NCBI GenBank assembly: GCA_016788785.1
Contig: JAEUSM010000006.1
Span: 62,001 to 126,000, forward strand
DNA length: 64,000 nt
Origin: Candidatus Kapaibacterium sp.
Lineage (GTDB): Bacteria; Bacteroidota; Ignavibacteria; Kapaibacteriales; JAEUSM01
Reading direction: 5' to 3'
Position 1 is the stretch's first letter. Each line of letters begins with the position of its first letter. The notes beneath the pieces are model-generated. The model was not told the origin of the DNA. It made no database searches and worked only from the letters and a program-made list of their open reading frames with translations. Shown here in pieces: positions 43,628 to 58,954 of the stretch. Both the position numbers and the translations under genes were made by a program.

Positions 43628-44146
43628 ATGAAGATTACGTACGCATTACTTATTTCAATTTTCTTAGTTATATCTTTTACATCATGTAATGTCAAAGGAT
43701 TTTTTGTAAAACCCGGTGACGACCCCCAATGGGTTGACCCTAATCCTCAACCAAAAGCTGGTGCAATTGCTGAATTGCCTGGTGAAAAAGTTTTCAAGTC
43801 TAAATGTGCTGCGTGTCACCAAGCAAACGGAAAAGGTCTACCAGGTTCATACCCCCCTTTAGTTGGTTCAAAACTCTTGAATACTGAACCTACAACACCT
43901 ATTAGAATAGTATTACATGGAATCCAAGGTCCAATTGTAAGAGAAGGTCAATCGTATAACGGAGCTATGACGCCTCACAAAGATATATTAAATGATCTTG
44001 AAATTGCAGAGGTATTAACTTATGCAAGATCTCAATGGGGTAATACAGGTGCTGCTGTAACTGAAGATGAAGTAAAAGCAGTCAGAGCAAAAACTGCTTC
44101 ACAAACAGTTTCTTACACAGAAGCTGATTTAACAAAACCATTATAA
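43628..44146 (+). CDS. Monohaem cytochrome c lipoprotein of the oxidase
   Basis: 172 residues. A lipoprotein signal ends at C20 (LVISFTSC). One haem-binding motif, CAACH (C60, C63, H64), and a methionine ligand at M114 (NGAMTPHKD) identify a class I cytochrome c domain. It is anchored in the membrane facing the periplasm and likely carries electrons between alternative complex III and CoxB, which here lacks its own cytochrome domain. First gene of the respiratory block, 16 bases before coxB. Confidence 0.92.
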   Translation: MKITYALLISIFLVISFTSCNVKGFFVKPGDDPQWVDPNPQPKAGAIAELPGEKVFKSKCAACHQANGKGLPGSYPPLVGSKLLNTEPTTPIRIVLHGIQGPIVREGQSYNGAMTPHKDILNDLEIAEVLTYARSQWGNTGAAVTEDEVKAVRAKTASQTVSYTEADLTKPL

Positions 44147-44161: not shown

Positions 44162-45070
44162 ATGATTTTAGCTGCAATTCCATCGTTTACAGAATTACTT
44201 GGTATGTTTGATATGCTCAAGTGGTTCCCAGAGAATGTCTCTACATTCGGACATGAATTAGATAATCTTTTTGCTTTCATTTATTATATTTCTTTAGGAA
44301 TCTTTTTCCTTACATATGGAGTGTTGATTGCATTCATGATTAAGTATAGAAGAAAAGATAATGTAAAAGCATATTATTACCATGGTAATAACTTAGTTGA
44401 ATTTACTTGGACTTTATTACCAACGATACTATTTGCCGGAATAGGTCTTTATTCGGATGGTATGTGGGAAAAAACAAAATACGAGAAAAAAGTACCTGTA
44501 CCAGATGTAGAAGTTCAAGTTATGGGTTACCAATATGGTTGGACTTGTCGTTACCCAGGACCTGATGGAACTTTTGGTCGTCAAGATAGAAATCAAATGA
44601 CAACATCGAATAGATTTGGAATAGATTCAGCCGATGCTGCAGGAAAAGACGATATCGTCAAAGACGGTTCTTTCACTTTTCCTATTAATAGAAATATCGT
44701 AGTTGGACTTTCTGCCTCAGACGTTCTACATAGTTTCTTTTTACCGAATTTCCGAGTGAAACAGGATGCTGTTCCTGGTCAATGGATTAAGGTTTGGTTC
44801 AATGGAACTAAAGTAGGTAAATATGAACTTGCTTGTGCTGAATTATGCGGTTCTGGGCATTACAACATGCGTGGGGAAGTTACTATGTTATCACAAGCAG
44901 ATTTTGACAAGTGGCTATCTGATGAATCTGCTAAGAAACTGGGAGTAAGTTTTGCTGTATCCCCAGTTAAATCTGATTCTAGTGCAACTAAAAAGAATGA
45001 TTCGACAGCAACAGTTGTAGCAGTTGCAACAACTGATACATCAAAAACAACTAATAAAAAAAGTAAATAA
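44162..45070 (+). CDS. coxB: Cytochrome c oxidase subunit II
   Basis: 302 residues. Two transmembrane helices near the start (about 35-60 and 78-98) precede a periplasmic CuA domain. The CuA ligands are visible: H in LSASDVLHSFF and CAELCGSGHYNM (C225, C229, H233, M236). The tail after about residue 265 is low-complexity, rich in S, T and K. No haem motif is fused. It transfers electrons from cytochrome c to CoxA. Confidence 0.96.
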   Translation: MILAAIPSFTELLGMFDMLKWFPENVSTFGHELDNLFAFIYYISLGIFFLTYGVLIAFMIKYRRKDNVKAYYYHGNNLVEFTWTLLPTILFAGIGLYSDGMWEKTKYEKKVPVPDVEVQVMGYQYGWTCRYPGPDGTFGRQDRNQMTTSNRFGIDSADAAGKDDIVKDGSFTFPINRNIVVGLSASDVLHSFFLPNFRVKQDAVPGQWIKVWFNGTKVGKYELACAELCGSGHYNMRGEVTMLSQADFDKWLSDESAKKLGVSFAVSPVKSDSSATKKNDSTATVVAVATTDTSKTTNKKSK

Positions 45071-45090: not shown

Positions 45091-46926
45091 ATGTCATCAC
45101 CCGTTTTAGTTTCTGATACTCATCATGATGTGCATACCGATCATGGACATCACGAACATCACAAACAATCCTTTATAACGAAATATATATTTTCAACCGA
45201 TCACAAAATGGTTGCAAAACAGTTTATGCTATCTGCACTTTTCTTTTTACTTATTGGTGGTGCACTAGCATTATTACTCCGCTGGCAATTAGCATATCCT
45301 GGTGAAGCTGTTCCACTTATTGGACAATTCTTACCTGAATTGATTGCATCTGATGGAGTAATACAACCTGGACTTTTCATTCAGTTAACTACAATGCATG
45401 CCTCCGTTATGATATTTTTTGTTATCATTCCATTGGCTGTTGGTTTATTTGGAAATTTATGTATTCCACTAATGATTGGAACTGATGATATGGCACTGCC
45501 ATTTATCAATCTCCTATCTTTTTGGTTATATTTCTTGGCAGGAATAGTTGCTGCTGCTGGATTCTTTGTACAAGGAGGTGCTGGAGCATCAGGTTGGACT
45601 GGTTATCCTCCACTTAGTGCAATTGGAGGATTAGGACAAACCTTATGGATTGTTGCTGTATTTCTTGTCGGTTTTTCTTCTATTTTAGGTGGTATGAATT
45701 ATGTTACCACGGTATTGAATAAAAGAGCACCGGGTATGAAAATGTTTGATATGCCATTATCTGTTTGGGCAATTTTCATTACATCAGTTCTAATGGTTCT
45801 TGGAACACCAGTTCTAGCATCTGCTGTAAGTATGTTGTTTTTTGACAATGTACTCCATACATCTTTCTTCATGCCTGATAATTTAACGGTAGCTTCTCCA
45901 TATGCAAATGGAATGAAACATTCTGGAGGTGGACAACCTATATTGTTCCAACATTTGTTTTGGTTCTATTCACACCCTGCGGTATATATTATGATTTTGC
46001 CATTGATGGGTGTTGTTTCTGATGTTCTATCAACATTTTCTCGTAAACCAATATATGGTTACAAAGCGATGATTTTCGCAATAATGGCAATAGCTTTCTT
46101 AGGGTTTATCGTTTGGGGACATCATATGTTTCAATCTGGTATGAATCCGCTGTTAGGTACAACTTTCATGTTGTCAACAATAGTAATTGCAGTACCTTCA
46201 GCTATAAAAGTATTTAATTGGCTTGGTACAATTTGGAGAGGAAGCATTCGCTATACAACTGCCAATATGATGGCACTCGGTTTTATAGCTACTTTCATTA
46301 TTGGTGGTTTGTCAGGTGTCTTTATGGCCTCAGCTCCTGTAGATATATATATCCATGATACATATTTCATTGTTGCACACATTCATTATGTATTATTCGG
46401 TGGTTCATTATTTGGTATTTATGCAGGTATTTATTATTGGTTTCCAAAATTATTCGGTAAAATGTTAAATGAAATTTGGGGACGTCGTCACTTCTTTTGG
46501 ACCTTTATTTTCTTCAACTTAACATTCTTCCCAATGCATATCTTAGGTGTTGGTGGACACATGAGAAGAATTCATGATCCGAATGTTTATGACTTTTTGA
46601 AACCTTTCCAACCTTGGAATGAATTTATTACCATCATGGCAATTATTCTTGGTTTCTCCCAGTTAATTCTTTTTGGAAATATCATATATACTTGGATTTG
46701 GGGACCTAAAGCACCAAAAAATCCATGGAATGCAAATACGTTAGAATGGCATGCTCCATCTCCACCTCCACATGGTAACTTCTTAGCACCTGTAAGAGTT
46801 TATCGTTCTCCATATGAATTTTCTCATCCAGATCGTGCTGATGATTTCCATCCACAATGGTTGGCTCCAGGAGAAGTGGAAATTGAAGAAACAACTACTG
46901 TTTCAGAAACTCAAAATACTCATTAA
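45091..46926 (+). CDS. coxA: Cytochrome c oxidase subunit I (A2 type)
   Basis: 611 residues with about twelve or more transmembrane helices. It holds the haem and CuB centre: HHMFQSG and the HIHYVLFGGSLFG helix are typical. The motif YSHPAVYIMILP replaces the GHPEVY of A1 enzymes, marking a type A2 haem-copper oxidase. The N-terminus is histidine-rich (DTHHDVHTDHGHHEHH). The C-terminal hydrophilic part is FSHPDRADDFHPQ. It reduces oxygen to water and pumps protons. Confidence 0.97.
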   Translation: MSSPVLVSDTHHDVHTDHGHHEHHKQSFITKYIFSTDHKMVAKQFMLSALFFLLIGGALALLLRWQLAYPGEAVPLIGQFLPELIASDGVIQPGLFIQLTTMHASVMIFFVIIPLAVGLFGNLCIPLMIGTDDMALPFINLLSFWLYFLAGIVAAAGFFVQGGAGASGWTGYPPLSAIGGLGQTLWIVAVFLVGFSSILGGMNYVTTVLNKRAPGMKMFDMPLSVWAIFITSVLMVLGTPVLASAVSMLFFDNVLHTSFFMPDNLTVASPYANGMKHSGGGQPILFQHLFWFYSHPAVYIMILPLMGVVSDVLSTFSRKPIYGYKAMIFAIMAIAFLGFIVWGHHMFQSGMNPLLGTTFMLSTIVIAVPSAIKVFNWLGTIWRGSIRYTTANMMALGFIATFIIGGLSGVFMASAPVDIYIHDTYFIVAHIHYVLFGGSLFGIYAGIYYWFPKLFGKMLNEIWGRRHFFWTFIFFNLTFFPMHILGVGGHMRRIHDPNVYDFLKPFQPWNEFITIMAIILGFSQLILFGNIIYTWIWGPKAPKNPWNANTLEWHAPSPPPHGNFLAPVRVYRSPYEFSHPDRADDFHPQWLAPGEVEIEETTTVSETQNTH

Positions 46927-46942
46927 TTTATTGAAATGTTAA

Positions 46943-46975
46943 GAGACTTTTCATGAACAAAACATGAAAAGTCTC
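46943..46975 (+). other. 13-bp perfect hairpin between coxA and ctaB
   Basis: GAGACTTTTCATG and CATGAAAAGTCTC pair perfectly around a 7-base loop. No T-tract follows (AAATTTATC), so it is not a standard terminator; an mRNA processing or stability element fits better. It also rules against starting ctaB at the ATG inside the stem (46964). Confidence 0.7.
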
Positions 46976-46987
46976 AAATTTATCAAA

Positions 46988-47932
46988 ATGACTACAACTA
47001 CCCATTCATTAGAACTCTCAAACCAAATGGTAAACTCCAAAGGTTTAGTAGAAACACATAGTAAGTTTTCTTCTTACTACGAGTTATCTAAACCTGGGAT
47101 TACTAAAATGGTTGTTTTTTCTACAACTGTTGGATATTTTTTGGGATTAACTTCTGTAAGTTCCCATTTTTCAACTTTGGAAGGTTTAGTTCATTTTCTT
47201 CTTACAGTTCTTGGTACAACCTTTGTTAGTGCTGGTAGTTGTGCTTTAAATCATTACGTCGAAAGGTCATTTGATGCAAAAATGGCTCGAACTCAAAATA
47301 GACCTTTAGTAAATGGATCGCTTCATCCTACTCAAGGTTTGTTGTTTGCATTAGCTATTTCAGTAATAGGATTATATTTTGTTTTTCTTATTAATGACTT
47401 AACATTTACTTTAGCTGTAGTTACAACGGTAACCTACATTGCAGTTTATACTCCATTAAAACGAAAAACGACACTTTCAACCATTATAGGAGCATTACCA
47501 GGAGCTATCCCAGCTCTGGGTGGTTATACATCTGTTACAAATTCTTTTGGTATTCCCGGAATTTTGTTATTCTCGGTTCTTTTCTTTTGGCAATTACCAC
47601 ATTTTTATTCTCTTTCTTGGTTATACCGTGAAGATTATTCAAATGGCGGCTTTGTTTTAGATTCGGTTGTAGATCCAACTGGAAAAAATGTTTCTATAAA
47701 ATCAAGTGTTTATATAGTATTGTTGTTAGCAACAACAACTGCATTTTATGTCTTTAATGTTGCTTCAGTGCTATTTCTTGTTGGCTCTACATTAGTAGGC
47801 TGTTATTTCTTGTATAATGCTATCTTGTTTATTAAAAACAGAACGAAGAAAGCATCAAGAACCCTTTTGATATCTTCATATATTTATCTTATGACGGTAT
47901 TTTTTCTCTTGTTAATTGATACATTACTATAA
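46988..47932 (+). CDS. ctaB: Haem O synthase (protohaem IX farnesyltransferase)
   Basis: 314 residues from the ATG at 46988, chosen because an earlier ATG at 46964 is inside a strong hairpin. About eight membrane helices; the polyprenyltransferase motif LNHYVERSFDAKMARTQNRP holds the prenyl-diphosphate-binding acidic residues. It adds a farnesyl group to haem B, supplying the haem O/A of the oxidase. Its place between coxA and coxC couples cofactor supply to enzyme synthesis. Confidence 0.94.
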   Translation: MTTTTHSLELSNQMVNSKGLVETHSKFSSYYELSKPGITKMVVFSTTVGYFLGLTSVSSHFSTLEGLVHFLLTVLGTTFVSAGSCALNHYVERSFDAKMARTQNRPLVNGSLHPTQGLLFALAISVIGLYFVFLINDLTFTLAVVTTVTYIAVYTPLKRKTTLSTIIGALPGAIPALGGYTSVTNSFGIPGILLFSVLFFWQLPHFYSLSWLYREDYSNGGFVLDSVVDPTGKNVSIKSSVYIVLLLATTTAFYVFNVASVLFLVGSTLVGCYFLYNAILFIKNRTKKASRTLLISSYIYLMTVFFLLLIDTLL

Positions 47933-47948
47933 ATCTACGGTATAATTT

Positions 47949-48560
47949 ATGTCAGGACTTGTACTCGATCATGAACCAGTAAGTGGCATACCGCATGGCA
48001 AATTAGCTATGTGGGTATTCTTAGCCTCTGAAATAATGTTTTTCACTGGTTTTTTTGCTTCTTTCATTGTTTTGCGAAATGCTAACATCGATCTCTTTAC
48101 AAATTCAGCTCAAGCTCTTAATAAGTGGTTAGCACTTTTAAATACGATTGTTCTTATTGGGTCCTCACTAACAATGGCACTTTCAGTTTTGGCTATTGAA
48201 AAAGGCAACAAAAGAAATTTTCAATTGTACATGACTATAACCATTTTATGTGCTTTTACATTCTTAATTGTTAAGTACTTTGAATATACGTCAAAATTTT
48301 CTCATCATATATATCCTTGGACAGATTTATTCTATTCATATTACTTCTTAACAACTGGATTTCACGGAATGCATGTTATTGGAGGTATTATTCCAATGGT
48401 TTGGATGTTAATGAGATCTTTTACCAAAAAAGGGTATCATAATCATGTAAGAGTTGAAGTTTTGGGATTATATTGGCATTTTGTAGATTTGGTATGGATT
48501 TTCTTATTTCCTGTACTTTATCTTATGTTTCCAACTTCGTATGTTCCACCAATTCATTAA
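47949..48560 (+). CDS. coxC: Cytochrome c oxidase subunit III
   Basis: 203 residues with about five membrane helices, the length of the shorter caa3-type subunit III. HGKLAMWVFLASEIMFFTGFF at the start, the FHGMHVIGG loop and VLGLYWHFVDLVWIFLFP near the end are family signatures. It stabilises proton pumping by CoxA. Twelve bases separate it from coxD. Confidence 0.95.
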   Translation: MSGLVLDHEPVSGIPHGKLAMWVFLASEIMFFTGFFASFIVLRNANIDLFTNSAQALNKWLALLNTIVLIGSSLTMALSVLAIEKGNKRNFQLYMTITILCAFTFLIVKYFEYTSKFSHHIYPWTDLFYSYYFLTTGFHGMHVIGGIIPMVWMLMRSFTKKGYHNHVRVEVLGLYWHFVDLVWIFLFPVLYLMFPTSYVPPIH

Positions 48561-48571
48561 TCAAGATTACA

Positions 48572-48871
48572 ATGGCTCATTTGACTGAAACTGAAACGAA
48601 AAAAGAATATTTAAAAGTGTTTTTTGGATTAATGGCTTTAACCGTTTTAACAGTAGTTGCCGCGGTTCTACACTTTCCAGAAAGCTGGGGAAAAGCTGGT
48701 GATACTCTTCATATTGGAATAGGAATTCTCATTGCAATCGTCAAAGTGTTAATGGTGATTTACATTTTCATGCATTTGAAGTTTGACCACCCTTATTTAA
48801 GATTTATGGTGATTGTACCTGTATTTCTCTTTTTTGTACTTACATTTGCATTAAATGTACTTGGCCCATAA
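48572..48871 (+). CDS. coxD: Cytochrome c oxidase subunit IV
   Basis: 99 residues, three membrane helices. The start at 48572 begins MAHLTETETKKEYLKVFFG, then ALTVLTVVAA, and HIGIGILIAIVKVLMVIYIF matches the prokaryotic subunit IV family of caa3-type oxidases. Upstream codons overlap coxC and are ignored. The end overlaps the SCO gene by 17 bases. Confidence 0.9.
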   Translation: MAHLTETETKKEYLKVFFGLMALTVLTVVAAVLHFPESWGKAGDTLHIGIGILIAIVKVLMVIYIFMHLKFDHPYLRFMVIVPVFLFFVLTFALNVLGP

Positions 48872-49436
48872 ATTTTTGATTCTTGGATTGTCGTTCTTCA
48901 TTTTTGCATGTAGTAAAACTTCTACACCAGAAAAAGAAAACAATACCTTAGAATCAATAAAAACGATTCCGGTGATAAAAGATGTTGGTGCTTTTAGTGG
49001 ATTAACATCAACGAAAAAACAGTTTTCAAATAATGATTTGAAAGACATTCCATCTGTAGTATATTTTATGTTTACGACCTGTAAAGGACCTTGTCCGATT
49101 ATCAATAAACAAACTGAAACTTTATTAACGGAAATACCAACTCCAGTACGCTTTGTTGCAATAACGGTTGATCCAGAAACAGATACTGAGGATAAACTAT
49201 TAGAATATTCTAAAACATTTACTTTCAAAGATTCATCTTGGATTTTTGTTCGTACACATCCTGATAGTTTGCGTTCAGTCGCTGTGAAAAATTTTATGGT
49301 CGGAGATATGGAATCCCCAATGGTACATAGTACACGATATATATTAGTTGATAAAAATGCTAAAATTCGTGGTTACTATGATGGTTTAGATTCTAAAGCT
49401 ATTGAAAAACTAAAACAAGATTTACAACTATTATAA
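48855..49436 (+). CDS. SCO1/SenC-family copper chaperone lipoprotein
   Basis: 193 residues. The lipobox FIFAC gives C19 as the lipidated cysteine. The thioredoxin-like SCO domain has the copper ligands CKGPC (C76, C80) and H158 (PMVHSTRYIL). It delivers copper to the CuA centre of CoxB. It starts 17 bases before the coxD stop, so it is translated with the oxidase genes. Confidence 0.93.
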   Translation: MYLAHKFLILGLSFFIFACSKTSTPEKENNTLESIKTIPVIKDVGAFSGLTSTKKQFSNNDLKDIPSVVYFMFTTCKGPCPIINKQTETLLTEIPTPVRFVAITVDPETDTEDKLLEYSKTFTFKDSSWIFVRTHPDSLRSVAVKNFMVGDMESPMVHSTRYILVDKNAKIRGYYDGLDSKAIEKLKQDLQLL

Positions 49437-49442
49437 TTCTCA

Positions 49443-49880
49443 ATGAATTTAGCAGAATTACCTTTGGTAAACGCTCTTTTAAATACACTGTCAGCTATTT
49501 TATTAGTTATTGGTTTTCGTTTTATCAAACAAAAAAAAATATCTCAACATAGAATAGTAATGATTACTGCTTTTGTAATATCTATCATCTTTCTTTGCTG
49601 TTACCTATTACATAAGTATCATTTGTATGTTACTACTGGTACCTACAATACAACGTTCAAAGGCGATGGAATTTGGAGAATAGTATATTTTATTATATTA
49701 ATCACACATTTAATTTTCGCAATTATGGTTCCGTTTTTAGCTATCATTACTCTTTTTAGAGGATTAAAAATGAAGGTTGAAACACATAAAAAAATAGCAA
49801 AGTTTACACTTCCTATTTGGATGTATGTGTCGGTGACTGGTGTACTTGTATACATTATGTTGTACAAATTATTTCCATAA
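49443..49880 (+). CDS. DUF420 membrane protein
   Basis: 145 residues with four membrane helices. ISQHRIVMITAFVISIIFL, LHKYHLYVT and LITHLIFAIMVPFL are the histidine-bearing segments of DUF420 (CtaM/YozB-like), linked in Firmicutes to oxidase assembly. Placed next to the SCO gene, an assembly role for the A2 oxidase is likely. Confidence 0.88.
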   Translation: MNLAELPLVNALLNTLSAILLVIGFRFIKQKKISQHRIVMITAFVISIIFLCCYLLHKYHLYVTTGTYNTTFKGDGIWRIVYFIILITHLIFAIMVPFLAIITLFRGLKMKVETHKKIAKFTLPIWMYVSVTGVLVYIMLYKLFP

Positions 49881-49882
49881 CT

Positions 49883-50098
49883 ATGAAAAAATTCGGATTT
49901 CTCTTTATAGTTACTCTTCTTGCTTTTTGCCTTGAGACATTTGCATGTCCAAATTGTAAGAATGCATATGCTCAAGATCCTACATTGGCATTAATTGGGG
50001 ATGCTTACAATTACAGTATTTTTTTGATGATTCTCATACCAATTGCATTAATTGGTTCTATTACGTTTTTGGTGATTAAAAATGCCAAAAAAAATTAA
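49883..50098 (+). CDS. Small exported CxxC membrane protein
   Basis: 71 residues, family not recognised. A signal peptide (KKFGFLFIVTLLAFCLETFA) is followed by CPNCKNAY (cysteines at 22 and 25), a short loop and a membrane helix (SIFLMILIPIALIGSITFLVI) with a basic cytoplasmic end. The exposed CxxC near the membrane could bind copper or act in disulfide or haem chemistry. It sits two bases after DUF420 and 33 bases before actA, exactly between oxidase assembly genes and complex III genes. Confidence 0.75.
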   Translation: MKKFGFLFIVTLLAFCLETFACPNCKNAYAQDPTLALIGDAYNYSIFLMILIPIALIGSITFLVIKNAKKN

Positions 50099-50131: not shown

Positions 50132-50866
50132 ATGTACTTTAGTAAAAAATTAGAAAATCAAATCAAACTCGGTGGATTGCTCGTAGCAGCAGCTGTCGGT
50201 TGTCTTTTTCTAACGGGTTATTTCGGATTTAATAACAGAGTTGCTGATAAGGGATATAGACCTGAACAACCTGTTCCTTTTTCTCATAAACTTCATGCTG
50301 GCGAATTGGAAATTAGCTGTATGTATTGTCACACAGGTGTGGAACAATCATCTCATTCTCCTGTTCCTAGTACCTCGACGTGTATGAATTGTCATAGCGT
50401 TGTTAAAAGTGATAGCCCAAAAATCAAATTGGTCAAAGAAAGTTATGAGAACAACACTCCAATTGAGTGGAAACGAATTCATTATCTTCCTGGGTATGCT
50501 CACTTCAATCACTCTCGACACATTCGTGCTATGATTGATTGTGCCTCTTGTCATGGACAAGTTGAAACGATGGGAGTAGTTCATCAAGAAAATAGACTTT
50601 CTATGGGATGGTGTCTAGATTGTCATCGCAATCCTGAACAGTACATTGTTCCTGCACGACCAATTTCTGGTATTTTTACTGGAGTTGATCCAATGAATGC
50701 TGTTAATAAAGAGACTGGTAAGTATAAACTTGCAGTTTCAAAACCTATTACAAGTCCACAATTTGGTCAGTATGAAACAGAAATTCCTAAAACAATTGTA
50801 GAGGGAATTCCTACTCCAAAACATGCTGGATTTGGACCAGAAAATTGTTCTGCTTGTCATCATTAA
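50132..50866 (+). CDS. actA: Alternative complex III subunit A, pentahaem cytochrome c
   Basis: 244 residues. One N-terminal membrane helix (about 12-30) anchors a periplasmic domain with five haem motifs: CMYCH (63-67), CMNCH (84-88), CASCH (137-141), CLDCH (161-165) and CSACH (239-243). This matches ActA, the pentahaem subunit of alternative complex III, a quinol:electron acceptor oxidoreductase that replaces cytochrome bc1. Confidence 0.95.
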   Translation: MYFSKKLENQIKLGGLLVAAAVGCLFLTGYFGFNNRVADKGYRPEQPVPFSHKLHAGELEISCMYCHTGVEQSSHSPVPSTSTCMNCHSVVKSDSPKIKLVKESYENNTPIEWKRIHYLPGYAHFNHSRHIRAMIDCASCHGQVETMGVVHQENRLSMGWCLDCHRNPEQYIVPARPISGIFTGVDPMNAVNKETGKYKLAVSKPITSPQFGQYETEIPKTIVEGIPTPKHAGFGPENCSACHH

Positions 50867-50890: not shown

Positions 50891-53800
50891 ATGTCTACTT
50901 TATTTGAAAACAATCGGAAAAAATACTGGAAAAGTATTGATGAATTACAATCAAACGTATCTGCATCAACTCCTGAATTTCCAGAGAACTATGATAAACC
51001 CGTTGAACATAAAGACGGTGTATCACGCAGAAGTTTTTTAGCGTTACTTTCTGCTTCAATGGCAGTTACTGCAACTGCTTGTAGACGACCAGATCATAAA
51101 TTGGTTCCGACTACTCAAGCAGTTGAATATCAAACTCCCGGAATGCCTCTTCATTATGCAACATCCTTTTCCTTCGGTGGTGTTGCTAGTTCAATTGTAG
51201 TTAAATCATTAGATGGTCGCCCATTACGCGTTATGGGGAATAAATTGGACGACTCATCTAAAGGTGGTGCTTCGACTCAAGCCGTTGCTTCAATTTTGGG
51301 TCTCTATGATCCTGATAGAATCAGACGGTCTAGAGTTAATAAAGGTGATGCCTCCACTCAAGTAGCTCTTTACAAAATATCTGAAAAAGTTAAAGCATCA
51401 ATTTCAGCAGGTAAAGAAGTTCGTTTACTTATTGAAAAACATTCTTCTCCATCTATTTCTCGATTAGTTCAGTTAGTTGAATCTAAATTTCCACAAGTGA
51501 AATTCGTTCAATACGACCCTAATTATTCTTATACTGCTTCATCACTGTACAGTAAATTGTTAGGTATAGATGGTGAAATAGTTCCTGACATATCTAAAGC
51601 TAATTATATAGTTTCTATCGAAGCTGATTTAGTTGGAACAGATTCTCATTCAAATTACCATTCAGCAAATTTAGCAACTAGTCGAAATGTTAGTTTGTCC
51701 AAACCAACAATGTCAAAATTGGTTGCTGTAGAGTCTACTATGTCTTTGACAGGAATTAATTCTGATGAAAGAGTTAAGATTTCTCCTAATCAAATTGATG
51801 ATTTTATTGCTGCGATTTTAAAAGAAATTTCTTCTGTTAAAGCAACTATTCCCGTCAATGTTTCATCATCAATAAGTGGAGAACTCGCTACTAAGGCAAA
51901 AGAAATTGCAAAAGAGTTGCTTAAAAATGGTGAAAATTCAGCATTTACTGTTGGTTCTCATTTGTCTGAGTCTGCTCAAAAAATGGGAATTACAATAAAC
52001 TATTTGTTAGGTACAATTGCTACAGGCAAATCTTTTGACCCATCAAGGGTATCTCCGACATCTAAAAACCTTAACAATAGAATTCAAGAATTGGTTGCAG
52101 ATTTAACTGCAAAAAAAGTTGAAACAATTGTTTTCTGTAATGTTAATCCAGAATATTGTGCCTCACAGAATTTGAAAGATTTGATTGCAAAAGTTGATAA
52201 TAAATTTGCATTGAATATATATGAAGACGAAACTGCAAAAATTTCTACTATTTCCATACCAATGGCACATAGTTTAGAAACTTGGGGTGATTCAGCAACG
52301 TTTTTAGGTGATTTATTAATTCAACAACCATTAATTGCTCCTTTAGCTGAAAGTTCTTTAGGATTAATAGACTTTACGTTGCAATTGTTTTCATCAATTG
52401 ATTCTACATTGTTTACTGAAACAAAATCAATGGATTTTGTTCAAAAAACTTGGGAACAAGGCCTTAATTTAACAGGAAACCCATTCAAAACTAAATGGGA
52501 AGCAATTCTAAAAGATGGATTATTTAAAAATACTCAAGCTGCTGAAATAGTAGTTACACCAAATACTACTGAATTCTCCTCATTTGGTACATTTTCAAAA
52601 ATTAACTCTCAATATATTGGATGTGTATTACCATCGCTATCTATTGTTGATGGTTCATTTGCTAATAATGGTTGGTTACAAGAAGTTGCTGATCCAGTAA
52701 CAAAAATTACTTGGGGTAATGTTATTTCTGTTTCTCAAAAAACAGCTAAAGCATTAGATGTAACTCAAAATGATGTTGTTAGAATAGAAACTACATCTGG
52801 TAATATTGAAGCTCCTATCTGGATTCAACCAGGATTAGCAGATAATGTACTTTCAACTACTACTGGTTATGGAAGAATTTCTGGTGGTATCGTTATGCAA
52901 AATATAGGCTCAAATGCTTATAAATTAGCAACGTCTGAAAACAAAACTGGTTATTTTTCCATTAAAAATGTAGTAAAAACAGGTAGACGTGAAAAGATTG
53001 CATCTACACAGTCTCATCATTCATTAGATGACCCAACTTTCTCAGGCGGTAGAAGAAATGATATCGTAAAAGAATTATCTCTAGACATTTACAAAAAAGG
53101 TCAAAAAGAAGTTGATGCAGCTATGAAAATGCATGCACCTGAAATTGGAACAAAAGGAAAGGATAAGTTCCTAATTCCTTTGAATATCGTAGATAACTAT
53201 GAATACAAAGGTCATCGTTGGGGAATGACAATTGACTTAAATACTTGTACTGGTTGTAGTGCTTGTGTAATAGCATGTCAATCTGAAAATAATATTCCAG
53301 TTGTAGGTAAAAAAGAAGTCCTTACTGGTAGAGAAATGGCATGGATTCGTTTAGATAGATATTATTCAGGAGATCCTGAAAATCCACAAACATCATTACA
53401 ACCGATGTTATGTCAACATTGTGAAAACGCTCCTTGTGAGAATGTTTGTCCTGTTGCTGCGACAACACACAGTCCTGAAGGATTAAACGAAATGACCTAC
53501 AATCGTTGTGTAGGAACTCGTTATTGTTTGAACAACTGTCCATATAAAGTTCGACGTTTCAACTTCTTAAACTATCACACGGAAAAACGTTCTCCTTTGG
53601 ATTTTGTATTTAATCCTGAGGTAACCGTCAGAATGCGTGGTATTATGGAAAAATGTACTTTCTGCGTTCAAATAATCAATGCTTCCAAATATCATGCTAA
53701 AGATCAAGGTCTTTCTCGTGTACCAGACGGTACAATTACGACTGCATGTCAAAGTGTTTGTCCAACAAGTGCTATTGTGTTTGGTGATTTGAATGATGCA

Positions 53801-53953
53801 AAAAGTCAAGTTTCAATAGCACGTCAAAGTGAAAGAAGTTTCCTAGTTTTACAAGAACTAAACACAAGACCTTCTGTATCATACTTGGCAAGAGTAAGAA
53901 ATGGTCAATCGAATGCTATTGATGCACAAAATCATTCTGCGAGTAAACACTAA
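50891..53953 (+). CDS. actB: Alternative complex III subunit B, molybdopterin-like/iron-sulfur protein
   Basis: 1020 residues. A twin-arginine-like signal (SRRSFLALLSASMAVTATAC, residues 45-64) ends at a possible lipidated cysteine, so it is exported folded. The long middle part resembles molybdopterin oxidoreductases, but in ActB no molybdenum cofactor is bound. The C-terminal 250 residues form a ferredoxin-type domain with clusters on CTGCSACVIAC, CQHCENAPCENVCP, YCLNNCP, CTFCVQI and CQSVCP. It carries electrons from the quinol site to the haems. Confidence 0.95.
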   Translation: MSTLFENNRKKYWKSIDELQSNVSASTPEFPENYDKPVEHKDGVSRRSFLALLSASMAVTATACRRPDHKLVPTTQAVEYQTPGMPLHYATSFSFGGVASSIVVKSLDGRPLRVMGNKLDDSSKGGASTQAVASILGLYDPDRIRRSRVNKGDASTQVALYKISEKVKASISAGKEVRLLIEKHSSPSISRLVQLVESKFPQVKFVQYDPNYSYTASSLYSKLLGIDGEIVPDISKANYIVSIEADLVGTDSHSNYHSANLATSRNVSLSKPTMSKLVAVESTMSLTGINSDERVKISPNQIDDFIAAILKEISSVKATIPVNVSSSISGELATKAKEIAKELLKNGENSAFTVGSHLSESAQKMGITINYLLGTIATGKSFDPSRVSPTSKNLNNRIQELVADLTAKKVETIVFCNVNPEYCASQNLKDLIAKVDNKFALNIYEDETAKISTISIPMAHSLETWGDSATFLGDLLIQQPLIAPLAESSLGLIDFTLQLFSSIDSTLFTETKSMDFVQKTWEQGLNLTGNPFKTKWEAILKDGLFKNTQAAEIVVTPNTTEFSSFGTFSKINSQYIGCVLPSLSIVDGSFANNGWLQEVADPVTKITWGNVISVSQKTAKALDVTQNDVVRIETTSGNIEAPIWIQPGLADNVLSTTTGYGRISGGIVMQNIGSNAYKLATSENKTGYFSIKNVVKTGRREKIASTQSHHSLDDPTFSGGRRNDIVKELSLDIYKKGQKEVDAAMKMHAPEIGTKGKDKFLIPLNIVDNYEYKGHRWGMTIDLNTCTGCSACVIACQSENNIPVVGKKEVLTGREMAWIRLDRYYSGDPENPQTSLQPMLCQHCENAPCENVCPVAATTHSPEGLNEMTYNRCVGTRYCLNNCPYKVRRFNFLNYHTEKRSPLDFVFNPEVTVRMRGIMEKCTFCVQIINASKYHAKDQGLSRVPDGTITTACQSVCPTSAIVFGDLNDAKSQVSIARQSERSFLVLQELNTRPSVSYLARVRNGQSNAIDAQNHSASKH

Positions 53954-57856: not shown

Positions 57857-57884
57857 AAGAGACAACCTAGGTTGTCTCTTTTCA
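57857..57884 (+). terminator. Terminator of the respiratory operon
   Basis: AAGAGACAACCT and AGGTTGTCTCTT form a perfect 12-bp palindrome (57857-57880) that runs into TTTC. It ends the cox-act block and separates it from the recombinase gene. Confidence 0.8.
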
Positions 57885-57898
57885 TATTAGTCAAAACA

Positions 57899-58954
57899 AT
57901 GAGTATAAAACTTCGATTTAAGGAAATAAAAGACAATAGAAAAAGTTTGTATTTGGATTTATATGTCCAAAAAAAACACCAATACAAATTTCTCAATTGT
58001 TTTATTTATTCAAATCCTCGAACAAAGGAAGAAAGAACTCATAACAAAGAAATACTAGCGTATGCACATAGTCAACTTTCACAATTACAACTTGAATTGT
58101 ATAATAGTAACGAATTGTTTTTTGCTCCAGCACAAACGAAAAATTCAATAATAGAGTATCTTAAAGAATTGCAAGATTCAAAGACCACTAAACAATCACA
58201 ATCAAATATATCATCCTTACAGTATCATCTTATAACTTCGAAACTTTTTGAAAGTATCGATGATATACATTTGAACTCAATTCAAAAATTCTCACAGTAT
58301 TTGCAAAATACGGTATCCTCTAACAGTGCTAAAACCTACTTTACGCTCTTTCTCCATTTTCTTCGTTTTTTGCAAGGTAAAAAACTTTTACAAAATATTG
58401 ATTTGAAAAGAGTGAAAAAAATTTCTGGCGAAGAAACACAACGTACATTTTTATCTGAATCTGAATTACAATTGTTATCAAAAACAGATTGTCCAAATGA
58501 ACAAGTAAAACGTGCATTTTTGTTTTCCTGCTTATGTGGTTTGCGTTTATCTGATATTAAAACATTATCCTCAAAAAACCTTGATTGGGAAAATAATTGT
58601 ATTGTGCTTAGAAACAAAAAAACATCTTCAATTCAATATATTCCAATAACAGAATCAATGAAAGTTTTCTTAGATTCTCTTCGAAATTCAGAAATACTAT
58701 TTTCACTTCCAGATACTTCAAATGTTGAAAGAAATTTAGAAAAATGGGCAAAGAAAGCAAATTTAGGAAAAAAATTAACGTTTCATGTCGCAAGACATAC
58801 CTTTGCTACATTATTATTAACAAAGAATATTGACATATATACCATTTCCAAATTGCTCAATCACAAAGATCTTAAAACAACACAGATTTATGCTTCGTTA
58901 GTTGATGAAAAGAAAATTTCAGCATTGAATACTCTTCCAACAATAACAATATAA
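57899..58954 (+). CDS. Tyrosine recombinase (site-specific integrase)
   Basis: 351 residues from the ATG at 57899; an earlier TTG lies inside the terminator. The N-terminal 75 residues (KLRFKEIKDNRKSLYLDLY) resemble the arm-binding domain of Bacteroidota integrases, then a SAM-like core-binding domain. The catalytic domain has R216 (CGLRLSDI), K241, H296 and R299 (HVARHTFATL), H322 (LNHKDLKTT) and Y331 (IYASL), so it should be active. It might be an integrase of a small element or a Xer-like enzyme. No attachment site, partner or other mobility gene is recognised around it. Confidence 0.88.
   Translation: MSIKLRFKEIKDNRKSLYLDLYVQKKHQYKFLNCFIYSNPRTKEERTHNKEILAYAHSQLSQLQLELYNSNELFFAPAQTKNSIIEYLKELQDSKTTKQSQSNISSLQYHLITSKLFESIDDIHLNSIQKFSQYLQNTVSSNSAKTYFTLFLHFLRFLQGKKLLQNIDLKRVKKISGEETQRTFLSESELQLLSKTDCPNEQVKRAFLFSCLCGLRLSDIKTLSSKNLDWENNCIVLRNKKTSSIQYIPITESMKVFLDSLRNSEILFSLPDTSNVERNLEKWAKKANLGKKLTFHVARHTFATLLLTKNIDIYTISKLLNHKDLKTTQIYASLVDEKKISALNTLPTITI

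Follow-up and report, generated by a model that had tools for sequence, protein, structure and literature searches.

A 71-residue CxxC membrane protein encoded between cytochrome oxidase and alternative complex III genes is a candidate accessory factor of aa3-type cytochrome c oxidase

Results

The window, a stretch of 64,000 nucleotides from Candidatus Kapaibacterium sp., carries on its plus strand a set of cytochrome c oxidase (cox) genes that leads into a block of alternative complex III (act) genes. A cytochrome c gene lies upstream of cox2 (43628..44146, +; PF00034, E 3.7e-12) and is followed by cox2 itself (44162..45070, +; PF00116, E 2e-14), whose product contains the CuA motif CAELCGSGHYNM and lacks CxxCH, by cox1 (45091..46926, +; PF00115, E 1.7e-144), by a UbiA-family gene that is ctaB by its place (46964..47932, +; PF01040, E 1.5e-46), by cox3 (47949..48560, +; PF00510, E 1.5e-20), by cox4 (48572..48871, +; PF03626, E 1e-12; start assigned by inspection), by a Sco gene (48855..49436, +; PF02630, E 9.3e-15) and by a gene of the DUF420 (CtaM) family (49443..49880, +; PF04238, E 8.1e-39). 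The complex III block begins with actA (50132..50866, +), assigned by a phmmer match to 6btm_A (Alternative Complex III subunit A; E 2.9e-36). Its last gene, taken as actF from its place, matched nothing in Pfam at 1e-5. The ActB gene (window 50891-53953, +) matched the TAT-variant molybdopterin signal domain TIGR04519 at 27.6 bits against a cut-off of 20.6 bits. A tyrosine recombinase ORF (57872-58954, +; Phage_integrase, E 6.9e-24, plus an arm-binding domain) starts 31 bases past actF on the same strand.

Between the two gene sets lies a short ORF, here called X (49883..50098, +, stop codon included), with COX2, COX1, UbiA, COX3, COX4_pro, SCO1-SenC and DUF420 domains encoded before it and actA, ActB, NrfD, ActD and cytochrome c after it. 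It encodes a 71-residue CxxC protein with a single predicted membrane helix, MKKFGFLFIVTLLAFCLETFACPNCKNAYAQDPTLALIGDAYNYSIFLMILIPIALIGSITFLVIKNAKKN. The ATG start at 49883 is 2 bases past the DUF420 stop codon, and actA starts 33 bases past the stop codon of X. The original prediction described this frame, its coordinates, its CPNC motif and its place between DUF420 and actA, all of which the window sequence bears out; the signal peptide and the one membrane helix that it named are predicted here too.

Judged from its homologues, their conservation and dN/dS, X is a genuine gene. A protein search found homologues at E<=0.01 in 33 of the 61 genomes of the window's order that formed our order-level sample, the best match outside the window's own genome having an E-value of 1.6e-12. 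A profile built from 27 X copies (A1, which leaves out L019, L025 and L030, the last truncated at its N-terminus beside Ns) returned the same 33 of the 61 genomes searched at E<=2.5e-19, a partly circular result with A1 rows among the targets. In five further genomes it gave only weak matches, and those in G020, G040 and G017 are diverged X relatives. Two other profiles, A2 (29 rows) and A3 (34 rows), are selections, and E-values are circular for the rows that built a given profile; the start codons of X homologues were chosen by script. Values of dN/dS ranged from 0 to 0.21 in nine pairs, with dS saturated (>1) in six of the nine, for which the ratios are rough. Conservation and dN/dS rule out a chance ORF.

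Searched against Pfam and NCBIfam, the window protein had nothing above the curated cut-offs, and neither did six relatives searched against both collections or further relatives searched against Pfam alone. Sequence and profile searches of PDB chains with known residues revealed no related chain, the weak matches being mostly to zinc-finger or RING proteins. A plasmid search with one relative (L107) gave no match, and no description of the family was found in titles and passages of open-licence papers. The family appears to be new, as do its distribution and its build, in which a CxxC opens the mature protein; oxidase assembly or accessory factors as a kind are already known.

By prediction, the signal peptide of X is cleaved, its cysteines lie outside the membrane and its basic tail lies inside. 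The predicted signal peptide comprises residues 1-21 (49883..49945, +), with cleavage after Ala21. An alanine precedes the predicted cleavage site in 60 of 61 copies, and the sole exception (L027) is a script artefact involving an earlier cysteine pair, the alanine being in place in A1. The predicted mature N-terminus is CPNCK (residues 22-26; 49946..49960, +). Across the 30 fetched act-linked copies, the A, C, P and C of ACPxC and Gly39 are invariant, which includes both of the cysteines on whose conservation the original prediction leaned, and the lysine after the second cysteine (Lys26) is present in 29, with serine in one. Both cysteines are also found in all 34 rows of A3, in which the two residues between them vary (PN, PA, AM, AL, SI, PV, ST and others). 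The ectodomain and helix are free of histidine in 60 of 61 copies and hold exactly two cysteines in 56 of 61.

Each of the 61 copies has one hydrophobic stretch, beginning 19-28 residues past the predicted mature N-terminus; in the window copy the predicted membrane helix spans residues ~45-65 (50015..50077, +) and contains a near-invariant Pro53 (proline in at least 90% of A3). The tail carries a net positive charge in 56 of 61 copies. Mean pairwise identity in A1 was 0.80 for the CPxCK region, 0.41 for the linker, 0.33 for the helix, 0.26 for the tail and 0.13 for the hydrophobic core of the signal, the least conserved region of X. Because the helix is better conserved than the equally hydrophobic signal region, it seems to be more than a simple hydrophobic anchor. 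The AlphaFold model, made from the single sequence, was all helical (mean pLDDT 74.7) and adds little. A bacterial lipoprotein was ruled out, as a loose lipobox pattern before the first cysteine fits 7 of 61 copies and does not fit the window copy (TFA-C). The CPNCK of the window copy does not match CxxCH, the motif of c-type cytochromes.

Homologues occupy the same position in act-cox operons of the window's type, as the original prediction had envisaged: X lies directly before actA in all 33 clear carriers (30 loci were read, and those of G012, G025 and G057 were placed by coordinates). The other neighbour of the 30 fetched copies is DUF420 in 14, Sco in 8 and Cox4 in 8. A Cox1 of the window type (68-72% identity) was found in 31 of the 33 clear carriers, and the other two, G053 and G057, are both assemblies of more than 300 contigs. 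One genome without X, G034, has such a Cox1 too, close to the end of a contig. The actA gene was found in 58 of the 61 genomes, 25 of which have it without a clear X. Approximately 3 kb upstream of actA was read in 20 of these 25 genomes, and X was present in none. In 14 of the 20 regions the genes before actA are CtaB, Sco and DUF420, without cox1-4 or X, and the six others, all of family f3, have no related genes upstream; five of these six f3 genomes have cox1 on the actA contig, downstream of actA.

Twenty cox loci, chosen by hand, were fetched from the order. Sixteen of them, the second cox operon of G012 included, are separated from act, either by more than 1 Mb or by standing on a different contig. 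A diverged X relative of the QCAMCK, QCALCR, QCSLCR or ACPLCQ types stands at the cox end, after Cox4 or Cox3, in 13 of the 16. No X relative was found in the three family f5 cox loci apart from act, and no X in the four family f3 cox loci. G012 carries two cox operons, each with its own X gene: the first X stands at actA, and the X at the second cox operon is of the G017 type. Most of the cox loci apart from act (13 of 16) keep an X relative, and the 20 act upstream regions read that have no cox genes have none; on this pattern of gene order, X goes with the aa3 oxidase rather than with complex III. A tie to complex III, or to the haem c insertion of the original prediction, is not supported, as X follows cox where cox lies apart from act. 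A haem c role was rejected on the absence of CxxCH and on the copies whose cox operons show no act gene in the stretch that was read.

Two features of the cox loci themselves were recorded. Family f3 genomes (for example L063, L069, L070 and L071) have Cox1-Cox3-Cox4-Cox2-CtaB operons although they are without Cox11, Caa3_CtaG, PCuAC, DUF420 and X. The cox3 matches at G008:C1:81950-82609 and G048:C296:6456-7115 are each split by a gap of 66 bases, as an inserted loop would do; their open frames are 253 aa (G008) and 230 aa (G048).

With the A2 profile and at most 14 candidates scored per genome, X was found in at least 109 of 395 genomes drawn from the phylum; 85 of these lie outside the order. 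Twenty contexts were chosen and fetched from these 85 genomes with a match, and 16 are cox operons, in which X follows DUF420 (12 contexts), precedes Sco (L101, L102) or stands in the order Cox3-X-Cox2 (L117, L118). Both within the order (the 13 of 16 loci above) and outside it (16 of 20), X is genetically linked to cox genes that stand away from those of complex III. DUF420 or Sco adjoins X in 14 of the 20 contexts. Four X relatives (L113, L115, L116, L120), of the QCSICAK, QCAMCSL and QCSICTK types, are not close to any recognised cox or act gene.

A contig scan for complex III loci in named genomes gave at least 80 loci, with R. marinus and F. johnsoniae not among the matches listed; for F. 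johnsoniae, deletions of actA and actE are on record (PMC8552683). The A3 profile, run on 40 of these at least 80 genomes, matched in seven at E<=1e-3 and found no convincing X in the other 33. By record title, the seven comprise one MAG each of Bacteroidetes and Acidobacteria, one MAG labelled Cyanobacteria, one Chthoniobacterales, one Methylacidiphilales and two Rhodothermales genomes. The order is Sco-DUF420-X-ActA in the Bacteroidetes MAG (L201), in which an act locus of the same genome (L143) is without X, and Cox3-Sco-X-DUF420 in the Chthoniobacterales genome; in the other five, X lies between Cox3/Cox4 and Cox2. L201 is the only X-bearing cox operon outside the order with an act gene in the stretch read. 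The X relatives in the cox operons of Acidobacteria, Verrucomicrobia and Rhodothermales MAGs are weaker: the case for such cross-phylum copies is built on weak scores (per-genome E 5e-9 to 6.5e-4) combined with build and gene order. The locus labelled Cyanobacteria (L153, genome G438) has an X of the form ACPVCFGAEET and a cox-X order that both closely resemble those of Acidobacteria L148, and its label may be wrong. In L202 and L204 another small hydrophobic ORF (MNLRWVHAM or MNLRSVHAM start) lies between Cox4 and X.

An inventory of copper factors was made in the 61 genomes of the order. Cox11 was over the cut-off in none (the Caulobacter control was positive), and nor was Caa3_CtaG, which gave two weak matches below the cut-off and positive controls in B. 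subtilis and C. glutamicum. PCuAC is present in 15 of the 61 genomes, and among the 33 clear X carriers in G009 alone (Fisher p 3e-5). When the diverged X copies of families f4, f6 and f9 are counted, 11 of 45 X carriers have PCuAC (Fisher p 1), with no mutual exclusion. DUF420 is present in 48 of the 61 genomes and in 43 of the 45 X carriers; 43 genomes have both, two X only, five DUF420 only and 11 neither (p 7e-7, ignoring kinship). All of these co-occurrence tests ignore phylogeny, and family f3 supplies 10 of the 11 genomes with neither, so that the correlation of X with DUF420 rests largely on f3. None of the 10 f3 genomes, nine of which have cox1, has X, DUF420, PCuAC, Cox11 or Caa3_CtaG. 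Since f3 has cox1 yet is without all of these factors and X, the absence of a known factor does not imply that X fills the gap. In family f5 (three genomes), cox, DUF420 and PCuAC are present and X is absent.

Discussion

The linkage of X to cox genes, and the separate X for each of the two cox operons of G012, lead us to propose that X assists the aa3-type cytochrome c oxidase with which it is encoded, as an accessory factor specific to that enzyme. Against this stand the families f3 and f5 without X, the 4 of 20 contexts outside the order that lie off cox and act, and the 33 of 40 named complex III genomes in which no convincing X was found. More narrowly, we give roughly even odds to X being a Cu(I)/thiol maturation factor that is anchored in the membrane, specific to the oxidase and active together with CtaM and Sco. 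The original prediction had suggested a new assembly factor for copper or haem c insertion, and the copper-related part stands as our best guess. This copper reading is helped by the Sco or DUF420 gene next to X in 22 of 30 act-linked copies, by the invariant cysteines, by the cox linkage and by the absence of Cox11 and Caa3_CtaG and scarcity of PCuAC. The two invariant cysteines of X, which has almost no histidine, are candidate copper ligands; one CxxC without histidine is a thin copper site, which counts against the copper reading.

The gene, its conservation, its oxidase linkage and the inventory of copper factors are results of this analysis, whereas topology, copper and partners are inferred, as follows. 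Cleavage after Ala21 would leave approximately 50 residues, with Cys-Pro-x-Cys-Lys first and outside the membrane, then a linker of approximately 20 residues, one helix that could dock on partners within the membrane, and, on the inner side, a basic tail. The N-terminal dithiol would bind Cu(I), or keep target thiols reduced, at the outer face of the membrane, next to Sco and CtaM or to Cox4 and Cox2. X may pass copper from CtaM on to Sco/CuA in Cox2 or CuB in Cox1, and would so cover part of the job of PCuAC, Cox11 or CtaG.

DUF420 is CtaM, which an active oxidase in S. aureus requires. CtaM (YozB) resembles the proposed X in being a membrane factor of aa3 oxidase maturation, lies beside X in the window and largely co-occurs with it; however, it belongs to another Pfam family and, according to a 2022 review, has four or five helices (PMC9145763), whereas X has one helix with a CxxC. 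Another paper proposes CtaM as a copper exporter in B. subtilis (PMC13344008). The copper chaperones PCuAC and CtaK share the proposed place of X in the pathway, that of a small extracytoplasmic copper donor to CuA, but the same review gives them histidine and methionine as ligands or putative ligands and a soluble or lipoprotein form (PMC9145763), in contrast to the CxxC and helix of X. Cox11 and Caa3_CtaG are membrane-bound and tied to CuB, as X may be, and X has no family match to either.

The main and serious rival to a Cu(I)/thiol factor is a small structural subunit. It is possible, although we think it rather unlikely, that X is a supernumerary subunit of the aa3 oxidase or of an oxidase-complex III supercomplex, with a disulfide or a metal at its cysteines. 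X lies among subunit genes, in other groups even between cox3/cox4 and cox2; each cox operon of G012 has one X; the helix is conserved, with Pro53; Cox4 adjoins X in 8 of 30 act-linked copies; and in size and operon place X is like the small single-helix subunits of cytochrome oxidases. However, no PDB chain with known residues matches X by sequence, and X is absent from f3 and f5. X also drifts at least as much as Sco, with 23-39% identity to the window copy (whole alignment) against 30-40% for Sco and 48-70% for Cox4 (local BLAST), although these identity measures differ between X and Sco/Cox4, and small subunits can drift too. We know of no small single-helix oxidase subunit with an N-terminal CxxC outside the membrane.

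The CPxC of X resembles thiol-exchange motifs, which counts for a role as thiol reductant or disulfide partner of Sco or of the CuA cysteines of Cox2, binding no metal. This role would fit the lack of histidine in 60 of 61 copies and the need for reduced cysteines in CuA assembly, as stated in the 2022 review (PMC9145763). An ectodomain of approximately 20-25 residues is, however, too short for a thioredoxin fold, and the two residues between the cysteines are variable, and we judge such a partner improbable.

We consider it very unlikely that X is a subunit of complex III, such as ActG, or an assembly factor for complex III or haem c, despite the actA gene adjoining all 33 clear copies. Published work places actG between actA and Sco in the respiratory cluster of C. 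aurantiacus (PMC3150298) and describes ActG as a subunit with one predicted helix, missing from some clusters (PMC5928083), so that it resembles X in being small, with one predicted helix, and near act genes. In three Rhodothermales loci (L123, L124, L125), actF and a Sco-like gene enclose an ORF of 114, 120 and 132 aa, respectively, with one hydrophobic stretch and no cysteine; these ORFs are longer than X, which for its part follows cox. L121, L122 and L127 have a longer ORF at the actG place. X is probably not ActG, on a comparison with these ORFs matched by place. No X was found in the act loci listed for named genomes (at least 80), searched with flanks of up to 10 kb, many of them shorter (best E 0.06). 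A complex III factor was rejected on the act upstream regions, all 20 without X, and the cox loci apart from act that carry an X relative.

Least probable of all is a copper-sensing leader peptide controlling the downstream act genes: X is short and stands before actA, and one study reports a copper-responsive upstream ORF (PMC9426467), but elsewhere X is an inner or last gene of the cox operon without actA following, its helix and proline are conserved, and its tail is positive in 56 of 61 copies.

The 2022 review describes the inserters of metal centres into oxidase subunit I as poorly understood and diverse, with more factors expected (PMC9145763). We suggest, tentatively and at somewhat less than even confidence, that X founds a cross-phylum family of membrane-tethered copper carriers with an N-terminal CxxC, which with CtaM and Sco would metallate the aa3 oxidases of bacteria that have no Cox11, CtaG and PCuAC. 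With approximately 50 mature residues and a presence in the cox operons of several groups, X represents a small target for deletion and metal-binding tests, and it should be considered wherever such oxidases show an unassigned helix.
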